Positions 1 through 12,359 of a stretch of DNA of 23,989 nucleotides are shown here, piece after piece (position 1 is the stretch's first letter; each line of letters opens with the position of its first letter). The notes under the pieces are model-generated. The model was not told the origin of the DNA. It searched no databases and worked only from the letters and a program-made list of their open reading frames with translations. Source of the DNA: a virus. The stretch spans positions 1 to 23,989 of IMG/VR virus record IMGVR_UViG_3300029319_000510, one strand, 5' to 3'. The position numbers and the translations under genes were made by a program.

Positions 1-43
1 CCAATAGAGGAGGTAAAAAATAATAATATATAAATATAAAAAA
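1..43 (+). other. Probable 3' tail of the capsid gene plus leader of the next gene
   Basis: Bases 1-7 supply the third base of a split codon, then CAA and TAG. The capsid frame that is cut at 23989 after two bases of a codon therefore reads on as Ser-Gln-stop if the two window ends are joined. The rest is an A/T-rich leader before the ATG at 44. An AGGAGG sits at 8-13, but it is about 30 bases from the ATG, too far for a ribosome site. The join is inference; the reading frame is seen directly. Confidence 0.55.
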
Positions 44-424
44 ATGAATAAAAAGTATTGGAGAAATTTAGAAAAAACTAAACCAGCTTACGAAGCTAAA
101 ATGGAAAAAAACAAAGATTTAGTAAAAGTAAAATTATCACAATTAGATGATATTGAGGAATATATTAATAGTGGATTAGGACTACTGGAATTTGTTGAGG
201 AAGCAATTGATGAAGCACAAACACATTACGTAAAAGCAAAAGATATCGTTAGATTTGATATGACATCAGCGTACAACGACGCAGAATTTGAGTTAGAAAA
301 ACTTTTAGACGGAATAAAAGCTTTAGGTATTGACGTACCATCAGAAGTACAAACATTACAAAATAGATTACAAGATTTAGAAGACGAGTTAGATAAAGCA
401 CAGAGGCTAATAGATAATTTTTAA
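44..424 (+). CDS. Coiled-coil hypothetical protein downstream of capsid gene
   Basis: A 126-residue, charged, mostly helical protein with no domain I recognise. Residues about 20-65 and 85-126 are rich in Leu, Glu, Asp and Lys with heptad-like spacing (for example LQNRLQDLEDELDKAQRL near the C-terminus), which points to coiled coil. There is no signal peptide or membrane segment. It starts at an ATG after an A/T-only leader and is followed 10 bases later by the connector-like gene. If the window is circular it lies directly after the major capsid gene, so a small virion or head-assembly role is plausible from position alone. It could equally be a non-structural accessory protein. Confidence 0.75.
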   Translation: MNKKYWRNLEKTKPAYEAKMEKNKDLVKVKLSQLDDIEEYINSGLGLLEFVEEAIDEAQTHYVKAKDIVRFDMTSAYNDAEFELEKLLDGIKALGIDVPSEVQTLQNRLQDLEDELDKAQRLIDNF

Positions 425-434
425 AAACTAATTA

Positions 435-1010
435 ATGGCAAATTACATATTATTCATATCAGAAAACAAACTAAAAGATAGTACTGCATTAGGAGGAAAT
501 GTGGATAATGAATTTGTATTACCGTATTTAAAGGTTGCACAAAAAAAATATATAGAAACCAAACTAGGTACGGATTTGTTTGTTAAGTTACAAAGTGATA
601 TTAGTGGAGGAACACTTGCAGGAGTTTACAAAACACTTGTGGATGATTATATTCAGGATGCGTTGGTACATTGGGCTTTTTACGAATGTTTACCTTTTTT
701 ACGTATTAGAGTATCAAACAATGGTATAGGTGTGAAAACATCAGAAAACATTGAAAGTTTAACACAAGAGGATATGAGTAGTTTAAGGGAAGAAATTAGA
801 AATACTGCGGAGTTTTATACGGAAAGGTTAGTTGATTATATAAGACATAATACATCTAGTTATCCTGAATACAATACAAATACAGGAGCGGATATATCAC
901 CAAGTAAAGTATCGTATTATAGTGGTATGAACATTGAAAGAGCTACAAGGAAAGATAGAGGAGGAATGATAACGTTAGATGATTTTTTAACACCTGATCT
1001 TAATCCATAA
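435..1010 (+). CDS. Head-tail connector-like protein (DUF6712-like)
   Basis: A 191-residue protein that resembles the helical connector proteins coded just after the capsid gene in Bacteroidota phages (the DUF6712 type, related in plan to gp6/gp15 head-completion proteins). What is visible: an N-terminal part with PYLKVAQKKYIETKLGTDLF, then helices around DDYIQDALVHWAFYECLPF, which fits the all-helical connector fold. The C-terminal third is polar and probably extended. Such proteins form a ring under the portal that joins head and tail. The family call rests on remembered sequence pattern plus position after the capsid gene; no catalytic motif supports it. Its stop overlaps the next ATG (TAATG), suggesting translational coupling. 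Confidence 0.6.
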   Translation: MANYILFISENKLKDSTALGGNVDNEFVLPYLKVAQKKYIETKLGTDLFVKLQSDISGGTLAGVYKTLVDDYIQDALVHWAFYECLPFLRIRVSNNGIGVKTSENIESLTQEDMSSLREEIRNTAEFYTERLVDYIRHNTSSYPEYNTNTGADISPSKVSYYSGMNIERATRKDRGGMITLDDFLTPDLNP

Positions 1011-1123
1011 TGAGAAAAAATTATAAACCTAAAGTCAAGAACGAAACGGCTTTAAAAAAATACATAAAAAGTGCCACTAAAAACAGCAACAAAGGACACA
1101 GCAGAAACAATACTAGTAAATAG
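1010..1123 (+). CDS. Small basic protein, 37 residues
   Basis: This short frame begins at the ATG formed inside the stop of the connector-like gene (TAATG) and ends at TAG 1121-1123. The product, beginning MRKNYKPKVKNETALKK, is very rich in Lys, Asn and Ser with no hydrophobic segment. Its end (KGHSRNNTSK) recalls the KGIHSKNASKG stretch in the other small basic gene at 8423-8542, so the two may belong to one loose class of tiny basic phage proteins. The function is unknown; nucleic-acid binding is a guess from charge. It overlaps the holin-like gene by 53 bases in another frame, which lowers certainty that both are translated. Confidence 0.5.
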   Translation: MRKNYKPKVKNETALKKYIKSATKNSNKGHSRNNTSK

Positions 1124-1244
1124 TTCTGTAATAGGTTTTACAACATTTGCAGAAATAGAAATGGTATTAAAGATATTGTTATTAGTATTAACAATTGGTT
1201 ATACTGTAAATAGATGGTACACACACTATAAAAAAAATAAATAA
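1071..1244 (+). CDS. Putative holin-like small membrane protein (GTG start)
   Basis: A 57-residue frame from GTG 1071 to TAA 1242-1244, reading MPLKTATKDTAETILVNSS at the start. Residues about 14-28 are mildly hydrophobic (ILVNSSVIGFTTF). Residues about 32-47 form a strong membrane helix (VLKILLLVLTIGYTV), followed by a basic tail NRWYTHYKKNK. Small proteins with this FADIE-VLK-LLL-TIGY layout occur beside endolysins in Bacteroidota phages as I remember them. It lies 81 bases before an M15 endolysin, so it is a good holin candidate: it would sit in the inner membrane and release the endolysin. No ATG exists in frame before 1161; starting there would leave only the bare membrane helix (27 residues). 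The stop abuts the next ATG directly. Confidence 0.55.
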   Translation: MPLKTATKDTAETILVNSSVIGFTTFAEIEMVLKILLLVLTIGYTVNRWYTHYKKNK

Positions 1245-1325
1245 ATGAAAACAATTTGTAAATTATTATACTATATAACAGGTATTTGTTTAGGTAAATG
1301 CAATTTAAATTGTAAAAAAAAATAA
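1245..1325 (+). CDS. Cys-rich 26-residue micro-protein in lysis region
   Basis: The ATG directly follows the stop of the holin-like gene, and the stop (TAA 1323-1325) overlaps the ATG of the endolysin gene as TAATG. That tight fit on both sides is the main reason to believe it is translated. The product reads MKTICKLLYYITGICLGKC and ends NLNCKKK. It has four cysteines, a mildly hydrophobic N-terminal half and a basic end. It resembles a tiny membrane-associated or signal-like peptide, but no proper lipobox is present because the residue before the cysteine is Ile or Lys. A role in lysis or spanin function is speculation from position. Confidence 0.45.
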   Translation: MKTICKLLYYITGICLGKCNLNCKKK

Positions 1326-1699
1326 TGGTATTAGAACATTTTGAAATTTCAGAGTTTGATTGTCCTACACTTATGGGATCAGGTAAAATGATGGATGATA
1401 AATTTTTATTTAAATTAGATAAAGCAAGACATACAGCAAATATACCATTTGTTATAACAAGCGGATACAGAACCAAAGAATATAATGAGGATTTGATTCG
1501 TAGAAACTATAAGGCAAGCCGAAATAGCAGTCATTTAAAAGGTATAGCAGCTGATATAAAATGTAATACAAGTAAAAATAGATGGATAATAATTAACAAT
1601 CTATTGTTAGCAGGTTTTACAAGGATTGGTGTAGGAGATACGTTTATACATGTAGATTTGGACAAAGATAAAACACAAAATGTAATTTGGACATATTAA
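1325..1699 (+). CDS. Endolysin, M15-family peptidase
   Basis: A 124-residue peptidase of the M15_3 (D-Ala-D-Ala carboxypeptidase/VanY-like) type, which cuts peptide bonds in the cell-wall peptidoglycan. Seen: ITSGYRT at about 44-50, the zinc motif SSHLKGIAAD with His70 and Asp77, and the second zinc site FIHVD with His109 and Asp111. These are the ligands expected for the family. The length is that of a bare catalytic domain, without a wall-binding domain or signal peptide, so release to the periplasm needs a holin; two candidate membrane proteins flank it. The start ATG overlaps the preceding stop (TAATG). Confident as an M15 peptidase; lytic role inferred from context. Confidence 0.9.
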   Translation: MVLEHFEISEFDCPTLMGSGKMMDDKFLFKLDKARHTANIPFVITSGYRTKEYNEDLIRRNYKASRNSSHLKGIAADIKCNTSKNRWIIINNLLLAGFTRIGVGDTFIHVDLDKDKTQNVIWTY

Positions 1700-1706
1700 C
1701 TAAATT

Positions 1707-1719
1707 TTTATATATTATG
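1707..1719 (+). promoter_or_regulatory. Repeated start-context element, copy 1 (TTTATATATTATG)
   Basis: The 13-base string TTTATATATTATG, ending in the start codon, precedes the small membrane protein gene. It recurs exactly before two other genes (9262-9274 and 12380-12392). It may be a translation-initiation context or part of a promoter. It also decides the start here, favouring ATG 1717 over the upstream ATG at 1687, which lies inside the endolysin gene. Confidence 0.45.
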
Positions 1720-1872
1720 GAATTATCAAACATTGATTGGACTACATTAATTTGGAGTTTAATTGCAATTATTGAAGTAGTAGTTAGATTAACACCTTCA
1801 GAAAAAGACAATTCATTACTTAACAAAGTTATTTGGTTTGTAGATAAGGTTATACCAAACAGAAAAAAGTAA
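1717..1872 (+). CDS. Small single-pass membrane protein, lysis-associated
   Basis: A 51-residue protein starting MELSNIDWTTLIWSLIAII. Residues about 8-25 form one membrane helix (WTTLIWSLIAIIEVVVRL), and the polar C-terminal half ends in the basic run PNRKK. Small proteins with the pattern WSLIA-IEV-VRLTP--KDNS are common near endolysins in Bacteroidota phages as I recall, but have no proven function. Its place right after the endolysin makes a second holin, antiholin or spanin-like role possible. The upstream ATG at 1687 would add ten residues overlapping the endolysin; the repeated start context supports 1717. Its stop overlaps the next ATG (TAATG). Confidence 0.65.
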   Translation: MELSNIDWTTLIWSLIAIIEVVVRLTPSEKDNSLLNKVIWFVDKVIPNRKK

Positions 1873-2594
1873 TGCGTAATAACCGTTACAGGTTAAAACC
1901 ACATGAGATACATAATTTAAAAGAGATGCGCAGGCAAAAGGGGGATAATGTCTTAGTCATAGGAGATTTACACGAACCCTTTTGTTTGAACGCATATCTT
2001 GATTTTTGTAAAGAACAATACGATAAATATAATTGTAATGAAGTTGTATTTATTGGAGATATTGTGGATAACCATTTTTCATCATATCATGAAGTTTCTA
2101 TTGATGCTGATTATACAGGTAAAATAGAATTAGAATTAGCAATTGAAAGAATACAAAGGTGGTATAGTGTATTTAAAAAAGCAACAGTTATAATAGGTAA
2201 CCATGATCGTATAATCATGCGTAAAGCTCAAACAAGTGCAATACCTAGTAAATGGATAAAATCATATAAAGAAGTATTAGAAGTACCTAATTGGACATTT
2301 ACAGAAAGATATGTTAAAGACAATGTACAATACGTACACGGAGAAGGAGGAACGGCACGTACAAAATGTAGAGCTGATATGATGAATACAGTACAAGGAC
2401 ATTTACATACTCAGTGTTATACGGAACATTATGTTGGACAAAATTACAGGGTTTACGGCACCCAGACAGGTTGCGGAATAGATCATGAAAGTTATGCAAT
2501 GGCGTACGCTAAATACGGCAAAAAGCCAGCAATTGGATGTGCGGTTATACTGAATAACGGCAAAACACCAATTAATATTTTAATGGAATTGTAA
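1872..2594 (+). CDS. Calcineurin-like metallophosphoesterase
   Basis: A 240-residue metal-dependent phosphoesterase. The motifs appear in the correct order: GDLH at 31-34 (Asp32, His34), GDIVDN at 62-67 (Asp63), GNHD at 109-112, YVHG with His156, and GHLHT at 176-180. These are the two-metal site ligands of the calcineurin-like fold, which hydrolyses phosphomonoesters, phosphodiesters or nucleotides. The substrate cannot be read from sequence. Phage members are sometimes linked to nucleic-acid processing or host nucleotide signals. It closes the lysis region, and the main intergenic gap follows. No signal peptide is seen, so it should act in the cytoplasm. Confidence 0.88.
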   Translation: MRNNRYRLKPHEIHNLKEMRRQKGDNVLVIGDLHEPFCLNAYLDFCKEQYDKYNCNEVVFIGDIVDNHFSSYHEVSIDADYTGKIELELAIERIQRWYSVFKKATVIIGNHDRIIMRKAQTSAIPSKWIKSYKEVLEVPNWTFTERYVKDNVQYVHGEGGTARTKCRADMMNTVQGHLHTQCYTEHYVGQNYRVYGTQTGCGIDHESYAMAYAKYGKKPAIGCAVILNNGKTPINILMEL

Positions 2595-2617
2595 CAAAAA
2601 CACGTTATTTTACAATT
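2587..2617 (+). terminator. Weak hairpin overlapping the stop of the phosphoesterase gene
   Basis: AATTGTAA (2587-2594, including the TAA stop) is the exact reverse complement of TTACAATT (2610-2617), with a 15-base loop. The stem has only one G-C pair and no clean T-run follows, so it would be a weak terminator. It lies exactly where the long late transcript would be expected to end, before a new promoter. Confidence 0.3.
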
Positions 2618-2659
2618 ATCCCTATTTATTTCCTTAATTATCCACTAGATATAATACAA

Positions 2660-2682
2660 TATTAACATACAAATTGTTAATA
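2660..2682. repeat. Inverted repeat upstream of promoter (operator candidate)
   Basis: TATTAACA (2660-2667), a 7-base spacer and TGTTAATA (2675-2682) form a perfect 8-bp inverted repeat. It lies about 24 bases upstream of the -33 TTG of the early promoter. A dimeric HTH protein could bind it; the small HTH protein coded at 5625-5867 is a candidate. It is very AT-rich, so chance is possible. Confidence 0.4.
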
Positions 2683-2706
2683 AATACACTATAATTCTGT
2701 TAAAAA

Positions 2707-2738
2707 TTGTTAGGTATTAGGGAATTGTTGTATATTTG
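2707..2738 (+). promoter_or_regulatory. Bacteroidota-type promoter for early genes
   Basis: TTG at 2707-2709 and TATATTTG at 2731-2738 match the Bacteroidota promoter pattern (-33 TTG, -7 TAnnTTTG) with a 21-base spacer. Transcription would begin near 2744-2746, leaving a leader of about 15 bases before ATG 2761. It stands in the only large gap and faces the early genes. This is the best host-type promoter that I found in the window. Confidence 0.7.
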
Positions 2739-2760
2739 TCATAAATAAAATTATAAAATT

Positions 2761-2967
2761 ATGTACAAAATAACAAACAAACAAACAGGCTTTATACAAT
2801 ACAGAAACGCAAAAGATACAGCAAACTTTGTATTTAAAAACAATTATACAAATTATACAATAGAACAAATAAAAGAGTATGATTTTAGTAAATACACGGA
2901 TATAGCATTGAGAACACTTACAATTACAATGTTTATAATACTATCATTTGCATTATTACAATTTTAA
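2761..2967 (+). CDS. Small protein with C-terminal membrane helix
   Basis: A 68-residue protein with a polar, Asn- and Tyr-rich N-terminal two-thirds (MYKITNKQTGFIQYRNAKD) and one strong hydrophobic helix at the very end (residues about 51-68, LRTLTITMFIILSFALLQF). It would be a tail-anchored membrane protein. I do not recognise a family. It is the first gene after the early promoter, where phages often place small host-takeover proteins. It could therefore act on a host membrane process or on superinfection, but nothing in the sequence proves that. Confidence 0.7.
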   Translation: MYKITNKQTGFIQYRNAKDTANFVFKNNYTNYTIEQIKEYDFSKYTDIALRTLTITMFIILSFALLQF

Positions 2968-2980
2968 AACTAAAAAAACT

Positions 2981-3367
2981 ATGACAGATAAATTAGAAAA
3001 AGAATTATACGATTTTACTATTCTAAAATTAACAGAATTTATAGATTACGAACAAGAACATTACGCATGTGATTTACACCATTACATTTTTAATGAGAAC
3101 TATTATATTATAGGACACTACAATGCTAAAGAATGGTTAAAAAAACATGATCTTGATGTTTTTGAAGTTATTGAAAGAATAAAAGAATATGAAGAAAATA
3201 CATTAGGACAATCATTAACAGATTTATCAAGTCCTGAAAGGGTAGTAAATATGTATGTATATATATTAGGTGAAGAAATATTAAATGAAAGTGATCATTT
3301 ACAAGAAATTTGGGATAATGAATGTACTATAAAAGATTACGAAAAAATTATTGATGAATTATCATGA
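2981..3367 (+). CDS. Conserved early phage hypothetical protein
   Basis: A 128-residue acidic protein with no assigned domain. I chose ATG 2981 (MTDKLEKELYDF) because it follows the preceding stop and has the A-rich AAAAAACT-ATG context also seen at the capsid gene; an earlier in-frame ATG at 2948 would overlap the preceding gene. The stretches FIDYEQEHYACDLHHYIFN and PERVVNMYVYILGEEILNE look like those of a family I have seen in Bacteroidota phages, usually among early genes, without known function. It is probably cytoplasmic, and its last codons overlap the next gene (ATGA), indicating coupled translation. Confidence 0.7.
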   Translation: MTDKLEKELYDFTILKLTEFIDYEQEHYACDLHHYIFNENYYIIGHYNAKEWLKKHDLDVFEVIERIKEYEENTLGQSLTDLSSPERVVNMYVYILGEEILNESDHLQEIWDNECTIKDYEKIIDELS

Positions 3368-3702
3368 ATATACAAGATTTAAATACACCTACAACCTGTA
3401 CTTTTACAGGTAAACAATTAGACAATACAAAGATTATAGCAAACTATTGGATACTTAAACCTACATTACAAAAATCATCAAGTTCAAGAAATGATGGGTA
3501 TGGTAGAATTGAAAATTGTATTGATTATAAAAAAAAGGGATCAGAATGTATTGTTGTAGGAACAGAATTACAGATTTATAGATTATTTGTGCACATGTTG
3601 AATAACTATGCATGGCAATTAAGAGATAGTTTTGATGAACCTATAAAAGATTACATGATACAAGAATATAATAATAATAATAAAATACCAGTAATACTAT
3701 GA
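3364..3702 (+). CDS. Hypothetical early protein, 112 residues
   Basis: Not recognised. The protein starts MNIQDLNTPTTCTFTGKQLD, with Cys13 the first of three scattered cysteines. A Ser/Asn-rich central loop is followed by a helical stretch (TELQIYRLFVHMLNNYAWQLRDSF) and an Asn-rich end. There is no membrane segment and no clear metal motif. It overlaps the genes on both sides by four bases, so it is embedded in the early operon. It is the middle of three short unknown genes before the SSB-like gene, and may be an accessory or host-directed protein. Confidence 0.65.
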   Translation: MNIQDLNTPTTCTFTGKQLDNTKIIANYWILKPTLQKSSSSRNDGYGRIENCIDYKKKGSECIVVGTELQIYRLFVHMLNNYAWQLRDSFDEPIKDYMIQEYNNNNKIPVIL

Positions 3703-10725: not shown

Positions 10726-11059
10726 AACAAAGATCAATAAAAAAAGAATGTTAAAGGCACTAGAAGCATCACTAGGAGTAACTACAACAGCGTTAAAAAA
10801 AGCTGAATTATCAAGAACAAACTATTATAAATGGTTAAAAGAAGATGAAGAATTTGCAGCTAAGGTTGCAGAAATAGAAAATATACAAAAAGATTTTGTT
10901 AAATCTAAATTTTTAGAAGCAGTATCAGACAAAGTACCAAGTGTATTGATTCATGCAACAAAACATGTATTAGGTTGGAGTGAAACAAAAAAGCTTGATA
11001 TAACAAGTGGTGAAGAACCAGTTAAAATAAATATCAATATTGAAGGAATTGAATATTAA
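10712..11059 (+). CDS. terS: Terminase small subunit
   Basis: A 115-residue protein with a helix-turn-helix at about residues 12-42: LEASLGVTTTALKKAELSRT, then NYYKWLKEDEEF. The pattern 'S---Y--WLKED--F' is usual for terminase small subunits, which recognise viral DNA and regulate packaging. A coiled helix (KVAEIENIQKDFVKSKFLEA) and a short tail follow. It lies directly upstream of the large subunit gene and overlaps it by 20 bases, the standard order. Its start overlaps the glycosyltransferase-like gene by 14 bases. Confidence 0.72.
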   Translation: MEQNRTKINKKRMLKALEASLGVTTTALKKAELSRTNYYKWLKEDEEFAAKVAEIENIQKDFVKSKFLEAVSDKVPSVLIHATKHVLGWSETKKLDITSGEEPVKININIEGIEY

Positions 11060-12359
11060 CCCTACCTTTTTTAATAATCAAAAACTAGCATTAAAATACC
11101 TATTTGATAAAACAACAAGTGAAATACTTTTTGGAGGAGCGGCAGGTGGAGGAAAATCATTTATAGGTTGTGCATGGTTAATATTGATGTGCTTAAAATA
11201 TCCTAACACACGTTATTTGATGGGTAGGAGTAAACTTGACAATTTAAAGAAAACTACTTTTAACACGTTTTTGGAGATATGTACAAAATGGAATATTGAA
11301 GCAAACAAACATTATCAATTTAATGGTAGTAGTAACATAGTTACGTTTTTTAATGGTTCAGAAATACTACTAAAGGATTTGTTCCACTATCCTTCGGATC
11401 CAAATTATGATAGTTTGGGATCATTAGAAATTACAGGAGCATTTTTAGATGAAGTAAATCAAATTACAGAAAAAGCAAAGAATATTGTAAATAGTAGGAT
11501 AAGGTACAAACTAGATATTAATAATTTAATACCTAAAACTATAATGACTTGTAACCCAGCAAAGAATTGGGTATATCAAAGTTTTTACAGACCTAGTGTG
11601 GAGAATAAATTACCTGAACACATGAAGTTTATACAAAGTTTAGTTGGTGATAATCCCTATATTTCAAAACATTATGAAACACAATTATTAAAACTTGATG
11701 AAATTAGTAAACAAAGATTACTATACGGAAATTGGGAGTATAACGCAAATGAAGATAATCTAATTAATTACGATAGTATATTAAACACATTTGAACAAAC
11801 AGGAAAAGTAGGTGATAAATACATAACAGCTGATATTGCACGTTTTGGTAATGATAAAACAGTTATAATGTATTGGGAAGGATTACACGTAAAACACATT
11901 AAAACATTTGATAAAAGTTCTATTACACAAGTAGCACAAGAAATAAGGAACATACAACAAAATGAAGGTGTAAATTTACGTAACATTATAGTTGATGAAG
12001 ATGGTGTAGGAGGTGGTTGTGTAGATATACTTAGATGTAAAGGATTTATTAATAATGGTAAGCCACTAAAAGGAGAAAATTATCAGAATTTAAAAACACA
12101 ATGTTATTACAAACTAGCTGATTTAATAAATAAAGGACAAATTGGTATAACTACAAAAGATATAATGGTTAAAAAATACATTATTGAAGAATTGGAACAA
12201 GTTAGGAGTAAAGATATTGACAAGGACAAGAAATTACAAATACTACAAAAGGACAAAGTTAAAACAATATTAGAACGATCACCTGATTATAGTGATGCGT
12301 TAATGATGCGTATGTATTACGAAATAGATAATAACTTTGGTAAATACTTTGTACAGTAA
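11040..12359 (+). CDS. terL: Terminase large subunit (non-ATG start)
   Basis: The packaging motor of the phage: a two-domain ATPase and nuclease, about 439 residues. Seen: Walker A GGAAGGGKS at 32-40; Walker B AFLDE at 134-138 (Asp137, Glu138); coupling motif TCNP at 170-173; nuclease acids Asp265 (ITADIARFG) and Asp319 (IIVDEDGVGGG), with a likely third acid near the C-terminus in SPDYSDAL. It drives DNA into the prohead and cuts it. Start: in this frame no ATG or GTG lies between the upstream stop at 11028-11030 and Walker A. TTG 11040 or TTG 11049 are the only ordinary candidates, both inside the small-subunit gene. The length fits the family. Confidence 0.92.
   Translation: MKELNINPTFFNNQKLALKYLFDKTTSEILFGGAAGGGKSFIGCAWLILMCLKYPNTRYLMGRSKLDNLKKTTFNTFLEICTKWNIEANKHYQFNGSSNIVTFFNGSEILLKDLFHYPSDPNYDSLGSLEITGAFLDEVNQITEKAKNIVNSRIRYKLDINNLIPKTIMTCNPAKNWVYQSFYRPSVENKLPEHMKFIQSLVGDNPYISKHYETQLLKLDEISKQRLLYGNWEYNANEDNLINYDSILNTFEQTGKVGDKYITADIARFGNDKTVIMYWEGLHVKHIKTFDKSSITQVAQEIRNIQQNEGVNLRNIIVDEDGVGGGCVDILRCKGFINNGKPLKGENYQNLKTQCYYKLADLINKGQIGITTKDIMVKKYIIEELEQVRSKDIDKDKKLQILQKDKVKTILERSPDYSDALMMRMYYEIDNNFGKYFVQ

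Follow-up and report, generated by a model that had tools for sequence, protein, structure and literature searches.

The window analysed here is the whole of a 23,989-base virus record (IMG/VR IMGVR_UViG_3300029319_000510, positions 1-23,989), whose + strand encodes, in order, a DUF6712 protein, basic37, hol57, cys28, an M15 endolysin, tm51 and a metallophosphoesterase (Table 1). The names hol57, tm51, cys28 and basic37, and the names h59 and h92 for proteins of related loci (below), were coined in this analysis.

Table 1. Genes of the putative lysis cassette and their immediate neighbours in the window
Gene product	Coordinates	Strand	Features
DUF6712 protein, 191 aa	435..1010	+	PF20459 E 6.5e-26, 91.1 bits vs cut-off 25
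basic37, small basic 37-aa protein	1010..1123	+	ATG 1010; 3' part contains the hol57 start
hol57, 57-aa holin-like membrane protein	1071..1244	+	GTG start; hydrophobic residues 25-43; basic C-tail
cys28, 26-aa Cys-rich micro-protein	1245..1325	+	Cys 5, 15, 19, 23; relatives 23-30 aa
M15 peptidase endolysin, 124 aa	1325..1699	+	PF08291 E 1.7e-10; phrog_894 endolysin E 8.9e-23
tm51, 51-aa membrane protein	1717..1872	+	ATG 1717; one hydrophobic and one amphipathic helix
Metallophosphoesterase, 3' neighbour of the cassette	1872..2594	+	PF00149 E 2.7e-9; phrog_221 E 3.2e-44

The DUF6712 stop codon overlaps the basic37 start as TAATG, hol57 lies in the +1 frame relative to basic37 and shares 53 nt with it (1071-1123), the cys28 ATG directly abuts the end of hol57, and TAATG contacts also join cys28 to the M15 gene and tm51 to the metallophosphoesterase gene. 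A sequence-only reading of this DNA had described five small genes chained by such contacts, with a 53-base overlap between the GTG 1071 frame and the 37-residue frame. All of its small frames and contacts, the overlap included, are present, but 17 nt separate the M15 stop from the tm51 ATG, so the chain is not unbroken, and the endolysin that it counted among the micro-genes is a 124-aa protein. The upstream "connector" gene does make the stop/ATG contact at 1010, but its product matches only DUF6712, a family of unknown function on which we found no paper. Stop-start contacts are ordinary in this genome, since 16 of the 33 gaps between the 34 listed window ORFs are zero or negative (the list lacks a few TTG-start ORFs, among them 11040-12359).

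The four small proteins had no Pfam match at E up to 1, and no Rfam family reached its gathering score in positions 1-3500. Among window ORFs of 40 aa or more on the + strand, just one further ORF is strongly hydrophobic; it lies at 2761-2967 and encodes 68 aa with a C-terminal, tail-anchor-like hydrophobic segment.

The endolysin and its neighbourhood in related phages

The M15 protein is a single 124-aa domain (41.4 bits against a PF08291 cut-off of 23.2) in which no wall-binding part was seen. It contains SSHLKGIAAD at residues 68-77 and HVD at 109-111, which we take to be the M15 zinc-site motifs SxHxxGxAxD and HxD; it thus resembles the M15 endolysins of PF08291 and phrog_894 in domain and motifs and is distinguished by its single-domain size. 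Its N-terminus is not hydrophobic (hydropathy does not exceed 0.35 in the first windows), which agrees with the earlier suggestion that it lacks a signal peptide, and for this reason a pinholin plus SAR endolysin arrangement was rejected.

The M15 protein matched 73 loci in a scan of viral contigs, and the closest 18 (L002-L019) share 62-75% identity with it. Of those, 16 encode hol57, 15 basic37 and 12 cys28, and the gene 3' of M15 is tm51 in 13 loci and h59, which encodes a holin-like protein of 59-63 aa, in five. Contig ends truncate L004 and L006; L016 is organised differently upstream and has none of basic37, hol57 and cys28.

The wider association of hol57 with such enzymes was counted as follows: tblastn of viral contigs with hol57 alignment A6 gave at least 443 confirmed relatives, of which 80 loci were kept; over all loci collected, from any query, there were 137 distinct hol57 regions, and leaving out 21 that were too short to judge gave 116 assessable. 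In 104 of the 116, hol57 precedes a peptidoglycan-enzyme-type gene by no more than 900 nt (M15 in 58, DUF5675 in 43 and amidase in three), and the remaining 12 have none of these three within that distance. Because some loci had come from M15 or tm51 queries, the count was repeated on those retrieved with hol57 alone (73 distinct, nine too short), where an enzyme follows in 56 of 64 (27 M15, 27 DUF5675 and two amidase) and eight are without one. Pfam searches of ten representatives returned DUF5675 in six of six and an amidase above cut-off in two of three, with L208 just below. DUF5675 is formally of unknown function, but it may act on peptidoglycan, since its H-x-G-N...G-C pattern resembles what we take to be that of L,D-transpeptidases. 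Two hol57 cassettes (L250 and L251) lie on one 36-kb contig, PAPR01000004.1, of a metagenome-assembled genome (MAG) labelled Pseudooceanicola, and are likely phage sequence binned with that MAG.

The gene on the other side of the enzyme is exchanged as well. In the 104 enzyme regions the 3' slot is occupied by h59 in 40, tm51 in 35, a three-transmembrane (3TM) type in nine, tm51 plus h92 in six and other genes in 14, and tm51 and h59 never occur together in one locus among all those collected. The 3TM type scores above the Pfam cut-off for GTA_holin_3TM (PF11351) in L247 and L290; in L247 it follows an M15 gene, the same slot that tm51 occupies in the window, although the two are not homologous in sequence. 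That members of a named holin family can take this position points to a role of the slot in membrane breach.

We therefore think that this stretch probably serves a tailed marine phage as its lysis cassette, in which the leaderless M15 endolysin acts with hol57 and tm51 as a membrane-breaching pair; a lysis module with two membrane proteins is well supported by the comparisons above. The M15 peptidase would be made in the cytosol, hol57 and tm51, whose hole formation and timing we infer, would admit it to the periplasm, and once past the inner membrane it would cut the peptide part of peptidoglycan. In this scheme hol57 would be the constant member of the pair, 5' of the enzyme, tm51 one occupant of the exchangeable 3' slot, and cys28 an optional micro-protein whose translation would immediately precede that of the endolysin. 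The arrangement resembles the holin/endolysin cassette of the lambda S/R type in having small membrane proteins beside a leaderless endolysin in one operon, but differs from it in having a membrane-protein slot on each side of the enzyme, a basic gene that runs into one of the membrane-protein genes and an additional Cys peptide, and in that no spanin was recognised among the window's + strand ATG and GTG ORFs of 40 aa or more. According to the portion of PMC12596118 that we consulted, the spanins used by Bacteroidetes phages are exclusively unimolecular.

The host is probably a flavobacterium. A hol57 relative lies directly before an M15 gene (M15 model E 1.8e-48) in a contig (L252) of a Lutibacter MAG, and the elemo phages that carry a hol57 relative infect Flavobacterium. 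Such MAG labels are weak host evidence, since other contigs with relatives are labelled as Pseudooceanicola and Chloroflexi MAGs. A cultured parallel is Flavobacterium elemo phage NC_055853, in which gp36, a hol57 relative annotated as hypothetical, overlaps by 26 nt gp35, an M15-type protein (PF13539 E 1.2e-15) annotated as D-alanyl-D-alanine carboxypeptidase; gp36 was found from the relative in L129 (E 2e-3, 41% identity) and not from the window hol57 itself. Flavophage endolysins are accompanied by small TM proteins in the account of Bartlau et al. (PMC8776804), and the consulted portion of that article does not name the micro-proteins of the window. No paper on these micro-proteins was found by title or abstract in the literature on Bacteroidetes-phage and flavophage lysis, Cys-rich cassettes and phage small proteins, a result to be read with the qualification that the phage small-gene survey PMC9254267 may contain these families. 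The lysis genes of marine Bacteroidota phages are poorly named, and recognition of the cassette supplies names for several small genes otherwise annotated as hypothetical.

The Cys peptide family

Query A10, built from five members of the Cys peptide family, found 53 loci, which represent fewer lineages than that because several of the contigs are near-identical. In 35 of the 53 the distance from the start of the Cys match to a downstream M15 start is 56-89 nt, in one (L292) the M15 gene lies 813 nt before the match, and in three (L290, L295 and L296) the neighbour is a 3TM-holin or Rz-like gene. The models used recognised no lysis gene in the other 14, and this number is an upper limit since at least one of nine "other" loci has endolysin PHROG matches. 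The family pattern is M-K-x-x-[IL]-C-x-x-[IL]-Y-Y-[IL]-[TS]-..-[VI]-C-[LF]-G-x-C, often followed by a fourth Cys; C5, C15 and C19 are present in all 27 aligned peptides, and members from outside the cassette frequently lack the fourth Cys.

The cys28 product is a real, conserved, optional micro-protein, usually encoded beside lysis genes, and it belongs to a phage micro-protein family with no name in the libraries searched. The 27 family members have no credible PHROGs copy (best E 0.11), and tblastn of three relatives against phage records gave only two chance matches (E 10) inside a virion RNA polymerase. A search of 397 Flavobacteriaceae-type genomes returned a single Cys match (E 1.7e-4), to an incomplete frame that contains a stop codon, which is not credible; hol57 had a match in two of the same 397, the Lutibacter MAG itself included. 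Within what was searched, the family looks phage-specific.

Does the Cys peptide take part in lysis? The idea that it is a new lysis component stands as far as its being real, conserved and lysis-adjacent, but the role is only possible, since the peptide is absent from intact cassettes and present away from recognised lysis genes; the family is thus lysis-linked and not lysis-exclusive, given that the peptide precedes M15 in 35 of 53 loci yet up to 14 show no lysis gene to the models used. We give not much less than an even chance to its being a general phage micro-protein, of host takeover or of redox or metal function, that is carried in the lysis operon just to be expressed late. The 14 loci without a recognised lysis gene, some with replication-type neighbours, would fit this, as would L003, L005, L014 and L015, where cys28 is missing from otherwise intact cassettes and the hol57 frame leads directly to the start of M15. 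Against it are the position directly before M15 in the majority of loci, the M15 gene upstream of the match in L292, the three Rz-like or 3TM-holin neighbours, the placement between Rz-like and small membrane-protein genes in L033 and L296, and the endolysin matches among the nine "other" loci. A PHROG scan of the nine non-M15 or odd loci (51 of 58 ORFs) had holin, endolysin and Rz-like families among the matches listed (25 of 90 families), and a follow-up of 10 ORFs from these loci gave only a weak Rz-like match (E 0.0015, L274).

That the family is instead a new phage-specific lysis accessory of Bacteroidota phages, a tiny thiol- or metal-dependent protein at the membrane edge that might tune holin triggering or replace part of the spanin step, seems to us quite unlikely. 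If true, it would account for the settings in which unrelated phages carry the peptide: directly ahead of M15, flanked by Rz-like and small membrane-protein genes, or next to 3TM holins. The peptide itself was rejected as a spanin, as it has neither a lipobox (no [LVI][ASTVI][GAS]C by eye in its 26 aa) nor a membrane helix (hydropathy maximum 1.06 over 19 residues).

In L033 (5372-5590) and L296 (2272-2496) the gene of an Rz-like coiled-coil protein (phrog_739 E 0.0054 in L033) immediately precedes those of a Cys peptide and of a small membrane protein of 68 aa, which is a different lysis gene order. Loci L267-L272 carry 24-aa relatives of the Cys peptide away from recognised lysis genes, with L270 and L271 among replication-type genes by eye.

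The two membrane proteins

The hydrophobic segment of hol57 (hydropathy 1.83 at residues 25-43) is preceded by a weakly hydrophobic stretch, and the C-tail has a mean net charge of +3.9 over 103 distinct members. Its start codon over 150 loci is ATG in 118, GTG in 31, as in the window, and TTG in one. The AlphaFold2 model is one helix spanning residues 2-56 (mean pLDDT 91) with no classic hairpin, and this predicted single helix is compatible with the presence or the absence of a membrane hairpin; it neither proves nor excludes one. In tm51 one hydrophobic helix is followed by an invariant LTP..DN turn and an amphipathic helix; its model has helices at 8-25 and 29-45 (mean pLDDT 73), the second amphipathic by sequence, and again no classic hairpin. 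Extension of tm51 to a TTG at 1687 was rejected, since in relatives beside other enzymes the start lies no further upstream than the position equivalent to ATG 1717 (alignment A9).

The window hol57 has no match in Pfam, PHROGs or NCBIfam, and thus none to a curated holin family, and tblastn of it against phage records found nothing at E up to 1. For tm51, tblastn of viral contigs gave 334 confirmed relatives, and tblastn against phage records a single match (E 0.2) that adjoins an endolysin. It matches no Pfam or NCBIfam family and no curated holin family; its PHROG matches are phrog_9685 (E 3.3e-4; matched by 23 of 31 members) and phrog_402, both of unknown function, with holin phrog_19617 only at E 0.12.

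The proposal of a holin pair or a holin and antiholin holds insofar as two small membrane proteins surround a leaderless M15 enzyme in slots that are conserved or exchanged for holin-type proteins, but neither protein reaches a named holin family that would assign the two roles. Most likely one of hol57 and tm51 is the putative holin and the other its partner or an antiholin. Like a holin, hol57 is a small protein with a membrane helix and an endolysin neighbour. A narrower alternative, which we think somewhat unlikely, makes the 3'-slot protein (51-aa, 59-63-aa or 3TM) the only holin and hol57 an antiholin or a travelling late inner-membrane protein. It would account for the exchange of this slot for the PF11351 holin and for h59, which has weak holin matches (phrog_565, phrog_297 and PF23809, E 0.01-0.06), and for the 12 of 116 regions in which hol57 has no peptidoglycan enzyme within 900 nt; it sits poorly with the fact that hol57 keeps its place before three unrelated enzyme types, and with the four of 61 hol57 members that touch holin phrog_920 (E 0.0029 at best). 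The hol57 and tm51 families remain without curated holin names. In L133 and L150 the slot 3' of the hol57 relative holds an unrelated-looking 46-aa ORF with a hydrophobic N-terminus and a C-terminal Cys cluster (CPVAKCVCKK).

The basic37-hol57 overlap and selection on the small genes

The basic37 family was found in 144 loci (not reduced to distinct contigs), each of which also has hol57, and in 140 of them basic37 directly follows DUF6712. The +1 overlap is present in all 110 loci in which both genes could be placed and ranges from 20 to 89 nt, mostly 83, 53 or 41. In the 28 close sequences, basic37 outside the overlap varies mostly at third codon positions (0.043, 0.107 and 0.366 at the first, second and third) and has a pN/pS of 0.13 over 18 codons. 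Within the overlap of the same sequences the variability is flat (0.25, 0.27 and 0.30), both frames have a pN/pS of about 0.69, and pS is reduced, at 0.36 against 0.56-0.60. Judged by these values, both frames of the overlap are coding and neither clearly dominates. Weight is given to these 28 close sequences alone, because in the wider set of 85 synonymous sites are near saturation and pN/pS rises (basic37 outside the overlap 0.66, the overlap 0.95 and 0.90 in the two frames, hol57 codons 18-50 0.65). We suggest that basic37 is conserved as a gene in its own right and that its A-rich 3' part would also carry the hol57 initiation region.

The MS2 lysis gene lies in the +1 frame relative to the coat gene, just as hol57 does relative to basic37. 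The MS2 and fr coat-lysis pairs are alike in having a lysis-type gene that starts inside the upstream gene with a similar overlap length (50 nt in MS2 and 38 nt in fr in the consulted portion of PMC12548453). The likeness and the overlap in all 110 loci raise the alternative that hol57 is translationally coupled to basic37 as MS2/fr lysis is to coat, throttling holin synthesis. The window, unlike MS2 and fr, is from a DNA phage. Such coupling seems unlikely to us: no occluding RNA structure was found at the hol57 start in the window and three relatives (z -1.10 to 0.81; z -1.21 for a 126-nt fold of the window), so coupling is one possibility among others, and independent initiation is just as likely because the region is open and A-rich. 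Folding also gave no RNA switch at the overlap.

Pooled pN/pS values, which are descriptive because the sequence pairs are not independent, are 0.43 for hol57 (28 sequences), 0.51 for cys28 (16), 0.24 for tm51 (17), 0.32 for basic37 (28) and 0.47 for h59 (10), compared with 0.42 for M15 (29), 0.33 for DUF6712 (28) and 0.30 for the metallophosphoesterase (19). By this measure the small frames recur in relatives under purifying selection. The sequence-only reading had named lack of conservation or broken frames in relatives as what would count against it; the frames are conserved and open there, and the reading was not refuted. Chance alone yields many short frames in AT-rich DNA (positions 1-3000 hold 40 listed ORFs of at least 20 aa), but conserved starts and order, low pN/pS and the invariant C5, C15 and C19 in the 27 aligned Cys peptides led us to reject, as extremely improbable, the idea that any of them is spurious. 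In the DUF5675-type cassettes of L178 (2476-2601), L034 and L085, a tiny basic protein (KKRKG.HSKNASK...RGQG) overlaps the start of the endolysin gene.
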